Source: Candidatus Hydrogenedentota bacterium (GTDB taxonomy: Bacteria > Hydrogenedentota > Hydrogenedentia > Hydrogenedentales > SLHB01). From it: a stretch of 64,000 bases of DNA. The notes beneath the pieces are model-generated. The model saw nothing but the letters and a program-made list of their open reading frames with translations. It was not told where the DNA came from and made no database searches. The stretch is taken from contig JAKPDK010000134.1 in the NCBI GenBank assembly GCA_029552745.1, positions 1 to 64,000 of the forward strand. Reading direction: 5' to 3'. The position numbers were made by a program, and so were the translations under genes. This document shows, one piece after another, positions 1-8,370 of this stretch (position 1 is its first letter; every line of letters begins with the position of its first letter).

Positions 1-97
1 CGTCGCGCCTCGCTTTTTTGGGGACGTCGAGTTATCCTGCGAAGGAAAGCAAGAGTTTTATGGGGTTGGCAGCGTTTCGTGTTCTTTTGCTTCGCTG

Positions 98-106
98 TGA
101 TATAGT
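98..106 (+). promoter_or_regulatory. Possible extended -10 promoter element
   Basis: TG-A-TATAGT at 98-106 matches an extended -10 box (TGnTATAAT) about 105 bases upstream of the first lipoprotein gene. There is no good -35 at the standard distance, as is allowed for extended -10 promoters. This is a sequence-motif guess only. Confidence 0.25.
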
Positions 107-211
107 AAGATGATAGAAGATGGAGACTGTGCGTCCTCAAGGGAAGAGGCTACCTTGTTCTCAGGACAGTGGGTTCCAAGATCGTTTATCGGGTGCAAGA
201 GAGGTGCTAAC

Positions 212-871
212 ATGAGAAAAGCAGTTTGGTTAAGTGTGTTTTTGCTTTGTCTTCTAGCCGCGTGTAAGAAAGCGGAACCGCCCCCTCCTCCGCCGCCCCC
301 TCCTCCGCCGCCGCCGAGCGCTGAACAGTTGCGAGAAGAGGCGTTGAAAAGCCTGGGCGACATCTTGATGCCGGGCATGCCCATTACATCGGACGTGGTC
401 AAGACGCGAATCAATGACGTTAAGGCAAAGTTGCGAGCGGAAGTCAATGGTGACAAGGCTATCCGTTTGATTACGAGCGACGTGCGTGACGCACTTAAGA
501 CGGCAAAGGACGCCAACCAATGGGATACGGTATTGGTCCTGTGTGATGCGTTGGAAGCGCTTGACCCCAGTGACTCGCGGGTGGAGCGTTATCGCGATCA
601 AGCAAAAGGAGAAAAGAACAAACCCATCGTTACGGTGAAGGGTTTTTATGAAGATGTGAAGACATCGGAGATCACCGTATTTATTGAGGCATATTTCCCC
701 AGCACGAACGAGCGGAAAACGGTTCAGGTGCGTGAGGGAGATGAATTTCTCGACGTATTGAAATTTCTTGAGATCGTCGGGAATCGCAAGGGCGTCAAAT
801 TGCAGTATCTGCCCACAGGTGAAATCTATGAGGTATTGATGCGAGATAATACGGCTCCTGCCAAGGGATAG
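212..871 (+). CDS. Polyproline-linker lipoprotein, paralogue 1 (unknown function)
   Basis: The start at 212 is preceded by a purine-rich GAGGTG and gives a clean lipoprotein signal peptide (MRKAVWLSVFLLCLLAAC). Upstream in-frame starts would bury that signal. The lipidated Cys at residue 17 is followed by a run of 13 prolines, then a roughly 190-residue predicted alpha/beta region. The C-terminal third (VxVKGFY...VQVREGDEF...L.YLPTGEIYEV) is shared with the next gene, so the two are tandem paralogues. The domain resembles no family I can name; the final part looks like a small beta-rich domain. The protein is likely anchored in the outer or inner membrane and faces the periplasm, with the proline run acting as a rigid spacer. 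Translation of such a run would normally need EF-P. Function unknown. Confidence 0.85.
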   Translation: MRKAVWLSVFLLCLLAACKKAEPPPPPPPPPPPPPSAEQLREEALKSLGDILMPGMPITSDVVKTRINDVKAKLRAEVNGDKAIRLITSDVRDALKTAKDANQWDTVLVLCDALEALDPSDSRVERYRDQAKGEKNKPIVTVKGFYEDVKTSEITVFIEAYFPSTNERKTVQVREGDEFLDVLKFLEIVGNRKGVKLQYLPTGEIYEVLMRDNTAPAKG

Positions 872-973
872 TCGCTGGTCATATGCTGTTTCGGCGAGGC
901 TCGGCTGTTTTGCGAAACGATCGGGATCTTTACGGGTTACTTTGTCCTTATGTACAACGAGGCGTGTCGACGT

Positions 974-1669
974 ATGCGACGTGAGCGATGTGGTGTGCTT
1001 GTCAGATGCGGAGTGGTTCTCCTGTTGTTGTTGACTGGTTGTGGGGAAGACTTCAAGGTGCAGCCCGCGCAACAAGCCCCGCCACCGCCCCCGCCTCCTT
1101 CAGCGGAAGAGCTCGCTAATCAGGGTATGCAACGGTTGCAGATATTGTCTGTCATTCCCAAGAACCTTCCGTTGCAAATGGTACTGTCCGACGAAGCGCG
1201 CCAAAAGCTGATCCAAGATTTGTTGGCTTGGAAGTCGTCGGTTTCCAAGGAAAAGAATGGGTCAGAGGCTGTCTCCCGTCTAATGGCCCAATTGGAGGAC
1301 CGGTTGCGTGCGGCACGTGACGACCAGAACCCAGCCCTGACGTTGCTCTTATGCGATTTGTTGGAGGCGTTGGGCTCTACGACGACGCGTATTGACGTGA
1401 GCCGCGAATGGGCGAAGGTGTACAATAACCGCCCCGTAGTTGTGATCAAAGGCTGGTTTCAGCAAATGGACACGCCCAATGAGGAAATTTATGCGTTTTG
1501 CGAGGTCTATTTGCCCGAAACCGGGGAAGTTCATACGGTTCAGGTGCGCGAAGGAGATGAGTTCTACGGGATGTTATTTGTTCAGATCATTGGCAAAAAC
1601 CGCGGCATGCGACTTCGTTACCTCGCAACGAACGACACGTTCGAGGTGTACGGTCCTCGACCGTTTTGA
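974..1669 (+). CDS. Polyproline-linker lipoprotein, paralogue 2 (unknown function)
   Basis: The start at 974 has GAGGCG about ten bases upstream. An ATG at 950 in the same frame lacks any ribosome site. The N-terminus is basic, followed by a hydrophobic stretch and lipobox LLTGC, then a spacer with seven consecutive prolines. The remainder parallels the upstream gene: a helical middle, then VVVIKGWF and the shared VQVREGDEF segment, ending in a YLATNDTFEVY-like strand. The proline run is shorter than in paralogue 1 (7 against 13), so spacer length has diverged while the C-terminal domain is kept. The stop lies only 6 bases before the next gene, so the two lipoproteins and the TMTC-like gene are probably cotranscribed. 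No known family recognised. Confidence 0.82.
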   Translation: MRRERCGVLVRCGVVLLLLLTGCGEDFKVQPAQQAPPPPPPPSAEELANQGMQRLQILSVIPKNLPLQMVLSDEARQKLIQDLLAWKSSVSKEKNGSEAVSRLMAQLEDRLRAARDDQNPALTLLLCDLLEALGSTTTRIDVSREWAKVYNNRPVVVIKGWFQQMDTPNEEIYAFCEVYLPETGEVHTVQVREGDEFYGMLFVQIIGKNRGMRLRYLATNDTFEVYGPRPF

Positions 1670-1675
1670 GGCCTT

Positions 1676-3424
1676 ATGAACGACCGAGAATTTAATATTG
1701 GTGTTGTGCTCGCCGTAATCCTGACGGGGATGTTGGCGTACAGTAACAGTTTTTCGAATGACTTCGTATGGGATGATGCTTCATCGGTTTTATTGCATCA
1801 TCACGTACAAGACCCGTCTCAATTTTTTCAACTTTTTCGAGAAGACCTTCACGCGTTCGGTCGGGGGCAAGGTAATTTCTACCGGCCTCTGTTGGCGGCG
1901 TCCTTTATGTTGGATTATGCTCTTTCACGTCCTGCTCCGGGGAGTCAACCGAGTCCGCTCTTGTTCCATTTGACGAACACCCTTTGGCATCTTGCGGCGG
2001 CGCTGTTACTCGCTGCGCTGCTACGGCGTTTCCGCGTTCCGAAACCCGTGTTGTTTATTGTACCGGTGTTGTATGTGGTTCATCCGCTTCACACTCAGGC
2101 AGTGACCTACATCAGCGGTCGGGGTGATCCCATGGCGGCGACGTTTATGTTTGCCGCTTTGTGGTTTTCGTTATGGGAAGGTAGCGCGGGACGTCGTTTT
2201 GCGGGTACGGTGCTGGGACTGCTATGTTTTGTTGCAGCCGTTCTCTCCAAGGAATCGGCAGTCATCTATCCTTTCTTATTATTGATTCTCCTCCTCACAG
2301 CCCCGTCGAGTAATACGGTAGAACCCCATGTTGAGGAAACAAGTAGTCGCTTCTGGGGTAGATTGATCCCTTTGGTGGTAGGGTTTGTTGCAGTAGCGGT
2401 CTATGGCGTTTTGCGTGCGACGGTGCTTCGCTTTGCCAATGAGTCGACCTCGACCAGCGCTGGGTTGGTTTCGCGTGTGACCGACGCGCTGAAAGCATTG
2501 ACTGTCTACGTTCGTCTAATCATAGCCCCGACGGATCTCCATATGGAACGTACATTGGACGGGGTACCGACTTTGGCCGTTTTTGGCGGTATTGTGATCT
2601 TGCTAATTTTGGTCGCTGGTATAGTTTTGGGAATTCGTTTCGGAAATCGTCGAATCGCAGCAGGATCGGCATGGTTTCTGGTGACGTGGTTCCCGATATC
2701 GGGGATAATCCCTCTCAATGCTCAAATCGCCGAGCATTGGATGTATGTTCCTTTAGCAGGGTTGATTTGGGCAGTGGTAGAAACGCTCTGGATGATTCTT
2801 GCCAAACGGGGCGTGCTCATCCAAAGGGTTGCTGGGGTAACTGCATTTGTCGTTGTGTTACTGTGTCTTTATGGCACGGCTTCACGCAACTTGGTATGGC
2901 GTGACAACGAGACCTTATTCCGCGATACTCTGGCCAAAAACCCGAATTCGATCCGAGTACATTTCAATCTTGCGGTGACCTATGAGGATATTTTGAAAAA
3001 TATTCCAGGGGCGCGTCGTCATTACGAGAAGGTGCTGTCGCTTTATAAAGAAAAGAAGGCGGCAGAAGGCATAAGCGAAGACACCTTCTGGCCGGACGAA
3101 CTCGAAGCGCATATATCGCTCGGAAGGATTTATGCGGAACAAGGCAATTTGGATCGTGCGGCAAATCATTTTCAAACCGTGCTGCGGGTGCAACCCAACG
3201 AGCAAAACCGCTCATACCTGGCGGAAGCCTCCTTGGGGTTAGGAAAATGCCTTTTAAGTATCGGGGACACCGATAACGCGAAAAAACTTTTTGAACAGGC
3301 GGCAAAACTGAACCCACAGCTCGGGGTACAACAAGGGGCAATGAGCGAGTCGGCTGGACAACCTGATACGAGCTCTTTAAAAGAAAACCCGAGCACTCAA
3401 GGCGTCGGGGAAACGACACAATAG
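1676..3424 (+). CDS. TMTC-like integral membrane protein with C-terminal TPRs
   Basis: 582 residues with about nine to ten hydrophobic segments in residues 8-405, then a soluble TPR region (about residues 430-550, with A..H...VL...P signatures). The N-terminal pattern (YSNSFSNDFVWDD, then YRPLLAASFMLDY, then VTYISGRGDPMAA) matches the bacterial and eukaryotic TMTC/DUF1736-type GT-C membrane proteins, whose animal members are O-mannosyltransferases with TPRs. The acidic Asp pair in the first loop (DD after FVW) sits where GT-C enzymes keep their catalytic acid. A role in transferring sugars from a lipid carrier to exported proteins is inferred from the family. It follows two exported lipoproteins closely; these would be natural acceptor candidates, but nothing shows this. 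The C-terminal tail is low-complexity. Confidence 0.8.
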   Translation: MNDREFNIGVVLAVILTGMLAYSNSFSNDFVWDDASSVLLHHHVQDPSQFFQLFREDLHAFGRGQGNFYRPLLAASFMLDYALSRPAPGSQPSPLLFHLTNTLWHLAAALLLAALLRRFRVPKPVLFIVPVLYVVHPLHTQAVTYISGRGDPMAATFMFAALWFSLWEGSAGRRFAGTVLGLLCFVAAVLSKESAVIYPFLLLILLLTAPSSNTVEPHVEETSSRFWGRLIPLVVGFVAVAVYGVLRATVLRFANESTSTSAGLVSRVTDALKALTVYVRLIIAPTDLHMERTLDGVPTLAVFGGIVILLILVAGIVLGIRFGNRRIAAGSAWFLVTWFPISGIIPLNAQIAEHWMYVPLAGLIWAVVETLWMILAKRGVLIQRVAGVTAFVVVLLCLYGTASRNLVWRDNETLFRDTLAKNPNSIRVHFNLAVTYEDILKNIPGARRHYEKVLSLYKEKKAAEGISEDTFWPDELEAHISLGRIYAEQGNLDRAANHFQTVLRVQPNEQNRSYLAEASLGLGKCLLSIGDTDNAKKLFEQAAKLNPQLGVQQGAMSESAGQPDTSSLKENPSTQGVGETTQ

Positions 3425-3450
3425 GATTGGGTCATAAGAGGATCAAGCAT

Positions 3451-4386
3451 ATGGCTATACCAGACTTCCAGAGTCTCATGTTGCCTCTGCTGAAATATCT
3501 TGGGCAAAAAGGGTCCGAAGTCAGTTCAAAAGAAGTCTTGGACGCGATGGCGAAAGAATTTGGTCTCAGTGAAGATGACCTTCGCGAAACGATACCGAGC
3601 GGAGCACAGACGGTATTTGCGAATCGGGTCAGTTGGGCGAAAACCTATTTGGCAAAAGCGGGTTTGGTGGAGTCGCCGCGTCGAGGGCATTACCGTATTA
3701 CTCCACGAGGGACGGAACTTCTACAGAGTAATCCAGAACGAATCGATATCGATTTTTTGAAAAGATACCCGGAATTCCTGGATTTTAAGAGCCTTCGAGG
3801 GACACGCAGGAGGTCTAATGCAGATGCAGTTCCTTTAGATGCGCCGCTTTTAGATAGTACTATGACTCCTTCCGAGCTGGTGGAGGAAGCCTTCCGTCAG
3901 ATGCAAGATTCGTTGGCAGAAGAAATACTGCAACGGCTCAAGCAAGTATCTCCGGCATTTTTTGAGCGTATTGTCGTCGAATTGCTTGTTGCCATGGGCT
4001 ATGGTGGGTCTTTTCCGGACGCGGGCGAGGCTATTGGGAAGAGCGGTGATGAAGGAATAGACGGTGTCATCAAGCAAGATAAATTAGGATTGGACACGGT
4101 TTATATCCAAGCGAAACGCTGGGAAGGCACTCCTGTGGGGCGTCCGGTATTGATGCAATTTGCGGGCGCTCTCCAGGCGCGCAAGGCAAACAAAGGGGTC
4201 TTCATTACTACGTCGAGTTTTACAGAAGATGCGAAAAGGTATGTAGCCCAGATTGGCACCAAGATAGTGCCTGTCGACGGGTACCAACTCGCGCATTTGA
4301 TGATTGAGCACAATGTGGGTGTTTCGACCGTCACTTCTTATCACGTGAAACGGATTGACAACGACTTTTTTGAAGAAGCGGGCTGA
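3451..4386 (+). CDS. mrr: Mrr-type restriction endonuclease
   Basis: The start at 3451 is preceded by AAGAGGA at a good distance; a TTG 24 bases upstream is less likely. 311 residues in two parts. The N-terminal winged-helix Mrr_N domain (about residues 1-95) contains FANRVSWAKTYL and GHYRITPRG. A linker follows, then the Mrr_cat PD-(D/E)xK nuclease domain (about residues 165-290) with FERIVVELLVAMGYGG, GKSGDEGIDG and IQAKRW. The Asp of GDEGIDG and the Gln-x-Lys of IQAK are the expected catalytic residues and look intact. The family cleaves modified (methylated) foreign DNA without a partner methylase, and none is encoded nearby. The gene starts 26 bases after the TMTC-like gene and may ride in that operon. 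Function is well supported by family; specificity unknown. Confidence 0.9.
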   Translation: MAIPDFQSLMLPLLKYLGQKGSEVSSKEVLDAMAKEFGLSEDDLRETIPSGAQTVFANRVSWAKTYLAKAGLVESPRRGHYRITPRGTELLQSNPERIDIDFLKRYPEFLDFKSLRGTRRRSNADAVPLDAPLLDSTMTPSELVEEAFRQMQDSLAEEILQRLKQVSPAFFERIVVELLVAMGYGGSFPDAGEAIGKSGDEGIDGVIKQDKLGLDTVYIQAKRWEGTPVGRPVLMQFAGALQARKANKGVFITTSSFTEDAKRYVAQIGTKIVPVDGYQLAHLMIEHNVGVSTVTSYHVKRIDNDFFEEAG

Positions 4387-4423
4387 CGGAGATGTCGTCG
4401 GCTGAGAAAGTAAGGAGGACTGT

Positions 4424-4846
4424 ATGCTGAAACAGCGCTTGATCCATCCGATGATACTGGAAGCGTTGTCTGCCGCAGGGCATGGTGCGAAAGTATTGAT
4501 TACGGATGGCAATTATCCTGCGAGCACCAAATTAGGTCCTAATGCTTTGTGTGTGTATTTGAACCTGGAACATGGGAAACTCACCGTCACAGAAGTCTTG
4601 GACGTGCTTCTCACAGCAATTCCGGTGGAGTCCGCCGCGGTCATGGTTCCTGAGTCGGGACCAGAGCCGCCGATTTTTTCAGAGTTTCGTGCCCGACTGC
4701 GCGACGTGGAGTGGGTGGAACTAGGTAGGTTTGAGTTTTACGAGGAAGCCAGTGACCCGGACGTATGTCTTACCATTGTGACGGGCGATCAGCGTTTGTA
4801 CGCAAATATCTTATTGACGATAGGTGTCGTTCCGCCTGCGCGATGA
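4424..4846 (+). CDS. RbsD/FucU family sugar mutarotase
   Basis: 140 residues, the usual length for RbsD (D-ribose pyranase) and FucU (L-fucose mutarotase). Seen: the N-terminal HPMILEAL segment followed by GHGAKVLITDGNYP, which holds the family's conserved GHGD-like catalytic His and the D-x-N/H-x-P loop. The family interconverts pyranose/furanose forms or anomers of a sugar entering a catabolic pathway. A strong AAGGAGG lies before the ATG. No sugar transporter or kinase is adjacent. The closest obvious pathway is the isomerase-aldolase-kinase operon at 31.5-35.4 kb, so a shared substrate such as L-fucose or a related deoxy-sugar is possible but is inference. Ribose versus fucose specificity cannot be read from the sequence by eye. 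Confidence 0.85.
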   Translation: MLKQRLIHPMILEALSAAGHGAKVLITDGNYPASTKLGPNALCVYLNLEHGKLTVTEVLDVLLTAIPVESAAVMVPESGPEPPIFSEFRARLRDVEWVELGRFEFYEEASDPDVCLTIVTGDQRLYANILLTIGVVPPAR

Positions 4847-5473
4847 ATGGGGAGCATGCAGGAGCACGCCGTAGCGGCGAAGCAACATGGTAAAAGAATG
4901 ATACGAATCTGGGCTGAAGTGAAAAGGTGCCTAGCCGACGCCTCCTTCGTATTGGTGACGCTAATTATATTCTCGTCGTTCCTGTTGGGGTGTGCTTATG
5001 TGCACCGTTTCCACGTGGTTCGATACAGTGTGGAATCCTCTTCGGGCGTCATCTCCGGACAAGGGAAGAATCTGCACTTAATGGAATGCGACGGGATTCG
5101 TGTGACATTCCAGAGGGCATATGCGCACGCCTGCTGGACGAAAAACCCGGGTGTGGGGTTGACCCTAATTTTGGAAAACACGACATCGAATCCGGTAAAG
5201 GTCGACACCCGAGAGATCTCTTTTTCTCGTTTTCCAGCGCGAGATGCAGCCACGCAGACCGCAATAAGCCCCGTTTACGTATGGGTCGAACCGGCAGAAC
5301 AACAGGGCGATGTCTGGGAAATAGCCGCAAAGACGACGGCAAAGGTTCACGTAGTGTTTCAAAGCCCTGCGCGTACGCCAGGCTATGTGCGGCTTGTCGT
5401 ACAGAAGGGAAGCAGGGACGAGCAAGCCGTTTTCACTTTTAAGGTGACTCGTATTCCTCCCACAAATTCGTAA
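4847..5473 (+). CDS. Putative lipoprotein, unknown function
   Basis: The ATG at 4847 abuts the stop of the mutarotase gene, but the signal peptide really begins at MIRIWAEVKR (in-frame ATG at 4898), so the true start may be there. A hydrophobic stretch ends in the lipobox FLLGC. The mature part is about 160 residues, predicted beta-rich, with a segment (LTLILENTTSNPVKV) that looks like an immunoglobulin-like strand pair. The latter half reads like a domain comparing unperturbed and stressed loops, with no catalytic motif visible. Probably anchored and periplasmic. Directly downstream a hairpin with a T-tract separates it from a convergent gene. I do not recognise a family. Confidence 0.65.
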   Translation: MGSMQEHAVAAKQHGKRMIRIWAEVKRCLADASFVLVTLIIFSSFLLGCAYVHRFHVVRYSVESSSGVISGQGKNLHLMECDGIRVTFQRAYAHACWTKNPGVGLTLILENTTSNPVKVDTREISFSRFPARDAATQTAISPVYVWVEPAEQQGDVWEIAAKTTAKVHVVFQSPARTPGYVRLVVQKGSRDEQAVFTFKVTRIPPTNS

Positions 5474-5474
5474 T

Positions 5475-5513
5475 CTCTCCCGTTTTGTCTCAGGGGATAA
5501 CGAGGGAGTTTTT
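5475..5513 (+). terminator. Rho-independent terminator between convergent genes
   Basis: An inverted repeat (CTCTCCCGTT at 5475-5484 against AACGAGGGAG at 5499-5508, small bulge) is followed at once by TTTTT. It lies immediately after the lipoprotein gene, and its T-tract overlaps the stop codon of the convergent dehydrogenase gene. Confidence 0.6.
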
Positions 5514-8370
5514 AAGCGTCTGGGTTGGGCACCAACCACGCAGCAAGCAGTTCGGCAATGTGTTTCGGTTCCGCCGAGCTCAAATGTTGGATCTGGTGTC
5601 GGCAGCTTATGCCACAAGCCACCACTGCAGTCTGATCCGAAAGACGGTTGACTTTTTCCACCAAGGGTTTTGCGACTTTAACGGACAGGTCGTATTTTTC
5701 GCGAAGTTGACCGAACTGTCCCGCCATGCCACAACAACCGGTATCTAAATAGGTAACATTGGCGCCGAGGATAGCACGGAGCAGGCGCTCTGCCGTTCGC
5801 GGATCACGTAACGCCTTTACATGACAATGGGCATGAATGGCTGCCGATGCGTTTCCATTTGGGTGAAATTGTAAGGCGTTAGGCTCCCGTTCCAGTAGGT
5901 CGGCAAGGAACTCCTCGAAGAGCACGCACCGGTTCGCCACTTCTTCTGCACCTGGAATCCCGAGTTCGGCATAGTCCTCAATAAACATCGAATGGCACGA
6001 AGGTTCTAGAAAGAGGATGGGCGTGGTAGACTTTTGTTGGAGAAGTAGTTGGACGTTGTGGGTTCCTAGCGCACGTGCCTTATCGAGCCTTCCCACGCTG
6101 AACGCGGGTCGTCCGCAACATTTTCTTCCAGAAATTGGCGACACGCGAAAGCCCGCCGCTTCGAGAACCTTCACAGCCGCTCTCCCCACATGCGGTTCGA
6201 AGTACCGTACGAACGTATCGTCCCAAAGAAAGACCTCGCCGCGTAGGTTGCTCTCTCGTGGGCGGTGTCGTCGGAACCATTTGTCAAAGGGTTGTTGAGC
6301 GAACGTGGGAAAGGGGCGTCTTGCTGCAAAACCGAGGTGTTTTTCCATTAAGTGCCGGGTAATCGGCAGCGCCAAGGCCCAGTTCGCAAGCCTCGGGAAC
6401 ATACAACCTAGCCTTCCCATCACATCGACGGCGCTGACGAGCCGTTCACGAGGTGTCAAGCCATTTTGTTTTTGTTTTGCATGAAGGAGTTCGGCTTTTA
6501 GTAAGCTCAAATTTACATTGGAAGGGCATTCTGTGGTGCAGGCTTTGCACGACAGACAGTTGGAGAGCGCCGTGTCAAGACTGCGGGAGAGGTTCCACGG
6601 CGTTTTGTCGTTCTCAAACCCTTCCAAGACGGCGCGGATCGTGTTGGCTCGTCCCCTTGTCGACATGAGTTCTTCCCCGGTGGCGGAGAAAGTGGGGCAC
6701 ATCGTGGGCTCATTCTTGAGGCATGCGCCGCAGCCGTTACACTGCTCGAGATTCGCAAGGAAAGATTCATCCTTTGCGCGGAAGCGCAGTACCGGTTTGA
6801 AGGGGAGTTCCAGACGATAGCCTGCGCCGCGTCGCCAATTCGTATCAATGCGATACACGGGGGCGGCGTTGTCTTCCGAAATAATTTTGCCCGGATTGAA
6901 ACGATTCACGGGATCAAACAAACGCTTGATTTCTTGCATGGCGTTGTAAAGATCGGCGCCCACATGTTCCTGCAAGAACTCGGTCCGAGCGATTCCTACG
7001 CCATGTTCGCCGGCGATCGTCGCGCGGAACTGATTCGCCAAGGCGAAAACTTTTTCCGCCATCTTTCTGTACTTTTCAATGTGTTCCGGAAGCGTGCAAT
7101 CTATGATGGGACGAATATGGAGGAGTCCGGCGCCGGCGTGACCGTAGAAAGAACCCTGTAACCCCATCTCGGACATGATATTTTGTACGCCTTCCGCATA
7201 TTCGGGAAGTTGTTCCGGTAACACGGCGACATCTTCCAAGCCGGGCACCGGCTTCGCCGCGCCTTTTCGTCCAGTCAATAGAGATAATCCGGCTTTTCTC
7301 AAGCCCCAAACCATGTCCATTTCTTTGGCGTCGGTGACCTTCATCGAACGCATGCCCAGTCCGCGACGTACGGCTGCCTCCACGCGGTCGGCTACGTCGT
7401 CATAGAACTCCACGATCAGAATTGCCTCACAGGGTTCTTCGTCAAGCCGAAGGAGTGTCCGCGCAGGCCGAAACGCCAACTGACCCCGCGTCTGATCAAA
7501 CAAGGCGCTATCAATATGCTCTACGGAGGCGGGATGCAAATCGCTAAGGGTAACGCAAGCTTGTAAAGCCTCGATCACGGAAGAGAAAAAGATTAAGACG
7601 AGCCCCTTTTGAGAGGGCATCTTTGCCAGTTTCAGTTTGGCGCTTATAATGAGGGCGAGGGTTCCTTCGCTGCCGCAGAGCAAGTCATTGAGGTTTCGAC
7701 CGTGCCGAAGATATCGGTCGATCCCGTATCCTGCCATGCGTTTTATGGTGGTACGCGGAAAATGCTCCTCAAAACCCACCGGCAGTCGACGAAGAATCGA
7801 CTCCACGGCGTCACGTATTGTCGTTAAAGAGGCGCCCGTTTCGCTTACAGTCGCTAGGGTGCCGTTGGCAAGCACGACATCGAGAGAGACAATGTTATCT
7901 GCCGTCGTGCCATAAACGGGGGCTCGTGCGCCGGAGGAATTGTTGCCGATCATACCTCCCAGCGTGGCGCGGGAACTGGTCGCTACGTCGGGACCAAAAC
8001 AGTAACCGTGGGGTTTCAGGAAGGCGTTGAGCTGGTCGAGGACGACTCCCGGTTCGACACAGACTGTGCCGCTATCCAAATCCAGGTTATAGATTCTTTT
8101 GTTGTACTGAGCGAGATTCACGACGAGCCCGTGCCCCACGGCGCCTCCGGCTAAACCCGTACCAGCTCCACGGGGAATCAGCGGGATGTCGGCTTCGTTT
8201 GCCGCTCCGACCAACCATGCCACTTCCTCACCGTTCTTGGGAAACGCCACGCCGAAGGGTTCTATTTGATAGAGCGAAGCATCGGTCGCGTATAACCTTC
8301 GGGTGTGGGCGTCAAATCGAACCTCACAAGGACCTTCTCCAAGGATCACGCGTTTTTTGGAGTCATTCAT
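5512..8370 (-). CDS. Fused FAD-linked 2-hydroxyacid dehydrogenase / Fe-S oxidoreductase
   Basis: 952 residues joining a GlcD-like flavoprotein with a GlcF-like iron-sulfur subunit in one chain. FAD_binding_4 (PCMH fold) spans about residues 38-172, with PRGAGTGLAGG and the GGMIGNNSSG loop. The FAD-oxidase C-terminal domain spans about 230-498 (GEHGVGIARTEF near the end). Two 4Fe-4S motifs are CNGCGAC...CP (544-559) and CLSCKACTTECP (605-616). Two CCG domains follow (CCGRP at about 751 and CCGMAGQFG at about 879). The architecture is that of the E. coli YdiJ / D-lactate dehydrogenase (cytochrome) group, which oxidises D-lactate, D-2-hydroxyglutarate or glycolate and passes electrons to quinone at the membrane. 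The exact substrate cannot be decided. It is about 45 bases downstream of the DUF4838 gene on the same strand, so possibly in one operon. Confidence 0.92.
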   Translation of the reverse strand: MNDSKKRVILGEGPCEVRFDAHTRRLYATDASLYQIEPFGVAFPKNGEEVAWLVGAANEADIPLIPRGAGTGLAGGAVGHGLVVNLAQYNKRIYNLDLDSGTVCVEPGVVLDQLNAFLKPHGYCFGPDVATSSRATLGGMIGNNSSGARAPVYGTTADNIVSLDVVLANGTLATVSETGASLTTIRDAVESILRRLPVGFEEHFPRTTIKRMAGYGIDRYLRHGRNLNDLLCGSEGTLALIISAKLKLAKMPSQKGLVLIFFSSVIEALQACVTLSDLHPASVEHIDSALFDQTRGQLAFRPARTLLRLDEEPCEAILIVEFYDDVADRVEAAVRRGLGMRSMKVTDAKEMDMVWGLRKAGLSLLTGRKGAAKPVPGLEDVAVLPEQLPEYAEGVQNIMSEMGLQGSFYGHAGAGLLHIRPIIDCTLPEHIEKYRKMAEKVFALANQFRATIAGEHGVGIARTEFLQEHVGADLYNAMQEIKRLFDPVNRFNPGKIISEDNAAPVYRIDTNWRRGAGYRLELPFKPVLRFRAKDESFLANLEQCNGCGACLKNEPTMCPTFSATGEELMSTRGRANTIRAVLEGFENDKTPWNLSRSLDTALSNCLSCKACTTECPSNVNLSLLKAELLHAKQKQNGLTPRERLVSAVDVMGRLGCMFPRLANWALALPITRHLMEKHLGFAARRPFPTFAQQPFDKWFRRHRPRESNLRGEVFLWDDTFVRYFEPHVGRAAVKVLEAAGFRVSPISGRKCCGRPAFSVGRLDKARALGTHNVQLLLQQKSTTPILFLEPSCHSMFIEDYAELGIPGAEEVANRCVLFEEFLADLLEREPNALQFHPNGNASAAIHAHCHVKALRDPRTAERLLRAILGANVTYLDTGCCGMAGQFGQLREKYDLSVKVAKPLVEKVNRLSDQTAVVACGISCRHQIQHLSSAEPKHIAELLAAWLVPNPDA

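Follow-up and report, generated by a model that had tools for sequence, protein, structure and literature searches.

A family of lipoproteins found almost only in the Candidatus Hydrogenedentota has been identified directly upstream of a gene for a TMTC-like membrane glycosyltransferase, and the two are strongly linked in almost all of the phylum. In its members a proline-rich spacer of nearly constant length is followed by a TPR-like helical domain and by a C-terminal beta domain whose modelled structure matches the HR fold of GspC, OutB and PilP. The reading judged most likely, with a probability of roughly 45%, is that these proteins are lipid-anchored periplasmic adaptors acting together with the glycosyltransferase; roles as its substrates or as parts of a secretin-based machine come next and are judged equally likely. 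To our knowledge, no lipoprotein partner of any TMTC-type enzyme has been described so far; what is understood of these enzymes comes almost entirely from animals, and we know of no partner or substrate described for their bacterial relatives. The phylum-wide linkage, missing beside related enzymes elsewhere, offers a handle for finding both the partner and the substrate of the enzyme. HR domains, lipoproteins, TPRs and TMTC-like enzymes are each already known; their combination appears to be new, though since only the open-licence literature was covered in finding no description of it, of the constant spacer or of the link to the glycosyltransferase, it may be published elsewhere.

The lipoprotein pair

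The relevant features of the window (the whole 64-kb stretch of DNA that was analysed) are as follows:

212-871, plus strand: LP1 (P0001), upstream lipoprotein of 219 aa, with lipobox LLAAC (Cys18) and a run of 13 prolines
278-316, plus strand: proline tract of LP1, 13 codons of mixed CCN type, with an imperfect 15-nt duplication inside
950-1669, plus strand: LP2 (P0002), downstream lipoprotein of 239 aa, with lipobox LTGC and a run of 7 prolines
1079-1099, plus strand: proline tract of LP2, 7 codons
1676-3424, plus strand: P0003, membrane glycosyltransferase of TMTC-like GT-C type ending in a TPR domain, starting 6 nt past the LP2 stop
4424-4846, plus strand: RbsD/FucU-family gene, found less constantly at the locus

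LP1 consists of a signal peptide, the lipobox Cys18, a 17-residue spacer, a TPR-like helical domain (residues 37-136) and an HR-fold beta domain (residues 137-211). The preliminary description of this DNA, made from the sequence alone, had presented LP1 and LP2 as adjacent paralogous lipoproteins with proline runs of 13 and 7, placed immediately before a TMTC-like gene; both open reading frames, their lipoboxes, the tracts and the position of P0003 all bear this out. LP2 is likely to start at the ATG at 974 (974-1669), from which its signal peptide is more typical than from 950. It is the copy adjoining the TMTC-like gene and has the same helical and beta domains as LP1, the two proteins being 37% identical (59% positives, E 4e-28) over 185 residues. 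Given this span, the C-terminal domain that they had been said to share is indeed common to both, and the homology reaches beyond the last 110 residues to the whole of the post-proline part, helical region included.

A Cys is present at the expected lipobox position in 86 of the 90 full-length members of the family, with at least two rows (L092 and L110) lacking it. The combination of signal peptide and lipobox Cys is that by which bacterial lipoproteins are recognized, and from their sequences these proteins would be lipidated. Neither LP1 nor LP2 matched any Pfam or NCBIfam family above cut-off, no relative of theirs was found on viral contigs, and the PDB, searched by sequence, gave nothing beyond look-alikes of signal-peptide, coiled-coil or helical type. 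In window positions 1-5600, scans for promoters and terminators gave no more matches than in shuffled sequence.

The proline-rich spacer

Across all six frames of the 64-kb window, runs of at least six prolines occur only in the LP1 and LP2 tracts, which argues that these are not due to chance. The LP1 tract reads CCG CCC CCT CCT CCG CCG CCC CCT CCT CCG CCG CCG CCG and is thus not a pure repeat. For the spacer as a whole, statistics were compiled from 86 of the 92 family ORFs, with one genome per species; those left out were two fragments of less than 190 aa and four rows without a called Cys (L056 second copy, L092, L109 and L110), though in the second copy of L056 the Cys missed by the filter is visible by eye. 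From the Cys to the conserved residue at which the first helix starts, the spacer has a median length of 17 residues and an interquartile range of 16-18 (n = 86, including at least two rows, G033 L071 and G025 L105, whose length is inflated by a Cys called too early). Proline makes up a fraction of 0.47 of the spacer vs 0.04 of the remaining protein (n = 86). As the preliminary description had expected, the runs do differ between species, the longest run ranging from 1 to 17 and being 7 or more in 27 of the 86, but there is no correlation between run and spacer length (Spearman rho 0.04, n = 86). In genus g4 (G003, G020 and G024) the runs are 7, 7 and 13, all within 16-residue spacers; since they differ at equal spacer length, prolines have been exchanged here by substitution. 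What evolution keeps is therefore the length of the spacer, and probably its stiffness, rather than the proline run or content. A polyproline helix rises by about 0.31 nm per residue, so that 17 residues would make a stalk of roughly 5 nm.

Fold of the two domains

An AlphaFold2 model of LP1, made with 45 sequences, has a mean pLDDT of 93.5 and a pTM of 0.78. It runs from a signal helix through an extended spacer and the helices of residues 37-136 to six strands in two triplets (139-147, 154-162, 167-173, 183-189, 194-199 and 204-209). In its helical part the model is similar to TPR pairs, e.g. 5lyn_A (Z 6.1, 1.8 Å over 58), a middling Z being frequent for helical matches of this kind. For the beta domain the best fold match is 3oss_C, the HR domain of GspC (rmsd 2.2 Å, 62 of 65 residues, 23% identity), at a Z of 8.1, a value near which a match can reflect a common arrangement. 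Further HR-type matches are 3jc8_Pa of the type IVa pilus machine (Z 7.7), 2y4y_B (PilP, Z 7.0), 6hcg_e (PulC HR, Z 6.3) and 7oio (LspC, Z 6.1), and the Dot/Icm chain 7muc_Af also fits (Z 6.2). These five named HR/PilP chains and 7muc_Af are the 6 of the best 13 fold matches listed that cover model residues 136-217, and the only other match to the beta domain among the 50 fold matches listed is one lipocalin (Z 5.3); with Foldseek alone, the LP1 model gave no match at E ≤0.001.

HR domains, as described in the parts of PMC9239104 and PMC3169554 drawn on here, are built from six consecutive strands arranged as two sheets, have pairwise identities of only 10-17%, and bind the secretin N0 domain in the cases studied. 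The LP1 model likewise has six sequential strands, whose two triplets would form two three-stranded sheets. The assignment to the HR fold is favoured because almost the full length of the domain is covered by five named HR chains belonging to different systems; the C-terminal domain of the model matches the fold of GspC, OutB and PilP, and is named by fold, not by sequence. The profile search that the preliminary description had proposed for this domain thus yielded no sequence family, the name coming from structure instead: P0001 and P0002 have no T2SSC or PilP family match up to E 10, the same is true for PF11356, PF04351 and PF16537 up to E 10, and these last three are absent among the best 25 of 46 families for 55 members of the family. 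Such failure of sequence profiles agrees with the low identity among HR domains themselves. Profile-profile comparison of the lipoprotein beta domain with HR families gave nothing significant, a positive control of GspC against PilP-like proteins also failing initially; with better-cut domains the known HR families align in register at P 0.007 and the lipoprotein domain aligns in register with the PilP-like one at P 0.033, in a comparison of little power, since the known HR control stayed weak.

Distribution and phylogeny of the family

The phylum count was made with a family profile (A8) built without signal peptide and spacer, because an earlier profile with the signal peptide still in it had produced weak matches to the lipobox alone. 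A8 matches 64 of 68 Candidatus Hydrogenedentota genomes, the exceptions being G002, G012, G015 and G022, and 1 of 223 genomes outside the phylum; this sole match (G079, E 3.9e-4), weak and partial in that it covers 46 positions of the helical part, has been taken as chance. P0001 alone, used as query, finds a match in 57 of 60 relatives. The family is thus essentially restricted to Hydrogenedentota.

In a tree of 90 of the 92 members, where the labels of contig-end copies were set by hand, three clades stand out: the upstream tandem copy of LP1 type, from 11 genomes of the window's family (support 96); the copy adjacent to the TMTC-like gene, with 12 rows (support 96); and copies belonging to other families and located apart from the TMTC-like gene, here called orphans, with 21 rows (support 99). 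As LP1-type and adjacent copies form separate clades, the pair in the window reflects an old duplication kept over several genera and not a recent one. The surroundings of the orphan copies are varied, and many genomes carry an orphan far from any TMTC gene, so that the family can work without adjacency.

One protein of different architecture carries the same beta domain. In G013, a minus-strand gene (L277, G013:C491, 1592-2791) encodes a membrane-anchored protein with two CAP domains (E 5.7e-35) and an LP-type beta domain at its C-terminus (E 2.4e-8 in the genome profile search), which indicates that this domain moves between architectures within Hydrogenedentota.

The TMTC-like glycosyltransferase and its linkage to the lipoproteins

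P0003 has a GT-C fold (Z about 20 against OST and PMT chains, 18.0 against ArnT), followed by a TPR domain at residues 424-565. Among its relatives D33, D34, Y69, R70, P71 and E193 are invariant in 45 of 45 rows, as is K192 in 33 of 33. In human TMTC1-4, as characterized in the part of PMC7801869 consulted, the motifs are a DD in the first loop, the YRP of motif M2 and the KE of motif M4, again on a GT-C/PMT fold with a C-terminal trans-side TPR; P0003 thus has both the fold and the conserved DD, YRP and KE, but is bacterial, is paired with a lipoprotein and has no match to DUF1736, which is absent among the Pfam families matching it up to E 10. This last point makes "TMTC-like" a fitting label and "TMTC" not. 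In fold and motifs, by model and sequence, P0003 is best described as a TMTC-like protein with putative O-mannosyl transfer activity. At E 1e-30 or better, the window's genome matches the P0003 orthologue group once. In the window, plus frame 2 at about 13.5 kb holds another, weak match to the TMTC-like profile (E 1.2e-5), perhaps only to its TPR part.

To avoid bias, the scan for linkage began from the TMTC-like gene. It retained 78 loci, 50 from the Hydrogenedentota group and 28 from elsewhere, mostly Omnitrophota. At least 700 bp of upstream sequence was required for the upstream count, leaving 41 of the 50 Hydrogenedentota loci eligible, and in 38 of these 41 a lipoprotein gene lies on the same strand no more than 500 bp upstream, 13 of the pairs overlapping and 21 being separated by 1-100 bp. 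Of the three exceptions, L131 and L144 have other genes upstream, while at L151 the lipoprotein gene is about 9 kb away; among the nine loci with less than 700 bp, which were not counted, it is present in three. Beside the TMTC-like genes of other phyla it was found at 0 of 28 loci (25 of them with at least 700 bp upstream). The conserved synteny that the preliminary description had suggested checking is thus well established within the phylum.

Other neighbours are less constant. RbsD/FucU is found downstream at 19 of 43 eligible loci (Fisher p 1.5e-6 vs the lipoprotein linkage), a membrane coiled-coil protein (cluster c2) near 15 of 26 (p 1.3e-3) and a response regulator (cluster c3) upstream at 12 of 35 (p 8e-8), so that among the neighbours tested the lipoprotein is the one most tightly linked to the TMTC-like gene, and strongly so. 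By genome, 59 of the 68 have both the lipoprotein and a TMTC orthologue (E 1e-50 or better), 5 only the lipoprotein, 1 only the orthologue and 3 neither (Fisher p 0.004, in a test that takes the genomes to be independent although they are not); many of the genomes are incomplete, and in four of the five lipoprotein-only genomes the gene lies at a contig end. The correlation of branch-length rates across 21 genomes gave no special signal of co-evolution, with r = 0.57 between adjacent lipoprotein and TMTC-like protein vs 0.72 between orphan lipoprotein and TMTC-like protein.

On one Omnitrophota contig (L174), ten matches to TMTC-like GT-C/TPR genes follow each other on one strand; L189 and L173 carry similar arrays, with the lipoprotein in none of the three.

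Relationship to secretin-based machines

The HR fold has so far come from secretin machines, and here appears in an apparently different setting. The possibility that the lipoproteins are a missing GspC or PilP was considered and rejected, T2SS GspC and T4P PilP-like copies existing separately. T2SSC matches are present in 53 of the 68 Hydrogenedentota genomes (none in the window's own), with the T2SSC gene beside GspD in the T2SS loci read, and the five T4P operons read have a membrane-anchored PilP-like gene between pilO and pilQ; a search with PF04351 matched 0 of 68 genomes of the phylum, and likewise none of the controls. The lipoprotein genes are found beside the TMTC-like gene or by themselves, and not in the secretin operons seen. 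They are HR-fold proteins additional to the T2SS and T4P copies. A secretin domain is found in 67 of the 68 genomes, mostly with 4-10 matches each and with 7 in the window's own, which provides candidate partners for docking.

PilP, from type IV pili, has been described as a lipoprotein. It shares the HR-type beta domain (2y4y, 3jc8) with the family studied here, but is encoded in the pilMNOPQ operon, while our lipoproteins also have a helical domain and are encoded among different genes. GspC, whose HR domain (3oss; described in part of PMC3169554) gave the best match, differs in that it spans the membrane, carries a PDZ domain in the copies read and is encoded next to GspD in Hydrogenedentota. 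GspB/OutB of the T2SS comes close in general design -- a membrane anchor, a linker and a periplasmic HR-fold domain, in an accessory scaffold that is not part of the core pump -- but its anchor is a transmembrane helix, its linker varies in length and it ends in a peptidoglycan-binding tail, according to the sections of PMC9239104 used here. The lipoproteins, in contrast, are probably anchored by lipid, have a proline-rich spacer of constant length and an additional TPR-like domain, and are found beside a glycosyltransferase, where OutB is found beside gspA.

Possible roles of the lipoproteins

In the adaptor role that we prefer, the protein would be anchored through its lipidated Cys, with the spacer of about 17 residues forming an extended stalk, probably roughly 5 nm long, that would set the TPR-like and HR domains at a fixed height over the membrane, beside the periplasmic TPR domain of the enzyme. 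The HR domain might then dock a partner by its edge strand, much as HR domains do with secretin N0, and the lipoprotein could serve in delivering or positioning substrates for the glycosyltransferase. This idea of a partner rests on the adjacency found in 38 of the 41 eligible loci. Against a tight partnership stand the missing co-evolution signal, the orphan copies and the five genomes with the lipoprotein and without a TMTC orthologue. The preliminary description had left it possible that the lipoproteins are partners or substrates of the enzyme: as to partners, the adjacency agrees with it, whereas the case for the spacer as a substrate is weakened, 38 of 86 spacers having no Ser or Thr at all. 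That the HR fold is not known for glycosylation tells in part against the connection drawn there, but the adjacency is conserved nonetheless.

A more specific and rather doubtful version would have the lipoprotein dock the TMTC-like enzyme, by TPR and HR contacts, onto a secretin N0 ring, where pilins or exported proteins would be glycosylated on entering the channel; if true, such a glycosylation-export adaptor would put the HR fold to a new use.

It is unlikely, though worth considering, that the lipoproteins are themselves O-glycosylated by the TMTC-like enzyme, on Ser/Thr at the end of the spacer or on the folded domains. Their adjacency to its gene would fit, as would the residue just past the spacer, at the helix start, which is Ser or Thr in 83 of 86 members; moreover, human TMTCs O-glycosylate the beta domains of cadherins, as stated in the part of PMC11292533 consulted, and a beta-sandwich target here would provide a parallel. 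The motif Ser/Thr-x-x-Glu at a helix start is, however, an ordinary helix cap too, and the many spacers free of Ser and Thr, as well as the orphans that occur with no TMTC gene nearby, argue the other way; an enzyme with a single co-encoded substrate in every genome would also be unusual.

Equally unlikely is a function within a secretin-based machine, with the HR domain bound to N0 as for PilP or OutB and the glycosyltransferase a co-transcribed passenger. The fold itself, the near-universal presence of secretins in the phylum and the precedent of OutB, an HR protein with linker and anchor outside the core T2SS (PMC9239104, in the sections used), speak for it. The lipoprotein genes, though, stand outside the secretin operons seen, which carry a GspC or PilP-like gene of their own, and the synteny with the TMTC-like gene is the tightest among the neighbours tested.

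There seems little chance that the beta domain is a phylum-specific module unrelated to secretins, in generic proteins of the cell wall or envelope: its occurrence at the end of the protein with two CAP domains in G013 and the want of a sequence link to HR families are in keeping with this, but five named HR chains stand among the best 13 fold matches, set against one lipocalin among the 50 listed. Finally, the proposal in the preliminary description that CCN slippage makes the tract a contingency locus, altering spacer length between strains, agrees with runs of 1-17 and with the imperfect 15-nt duplication inside the 13-codon tract, but fails across species and is most improbable, the spacer staying at 16-18 residues whatever the run, the codons being mixed and the g4 runs having changed by substitution.

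Other genes around the locus

Between the TMTC-like and RbsD/FucU genes of the window lies a gene for an Mrr-type restriction endonuclease (3427-4386); since, in most of the loci where it is retained, RbsD/FucU comes immediately after the TMTC-like gene, the Mrr gene is possibly a local insertion. The c2 proteins are 580-630 aa long and appear by eye to have a disordered N-terminus, one membrane helix and a coiled coil; the orthologue in the window's genome is encoded outside the window, at G000:C25:177999-179732. The c3 response regulator, which has a degenerate GGDEF domain, is often divergently oriented upstream of the lipoprotein (e.g. L157, 7976-8905, minus strand). At the other end, window positions 1-141 are identical to the final 141 bases of contig C111, in what looks like an assembly overlap; C111 ends after two ORFs that by eye resemble rplM and rpsI, so that the true upstream neighbour of the window may be a ribosomal protein operon.
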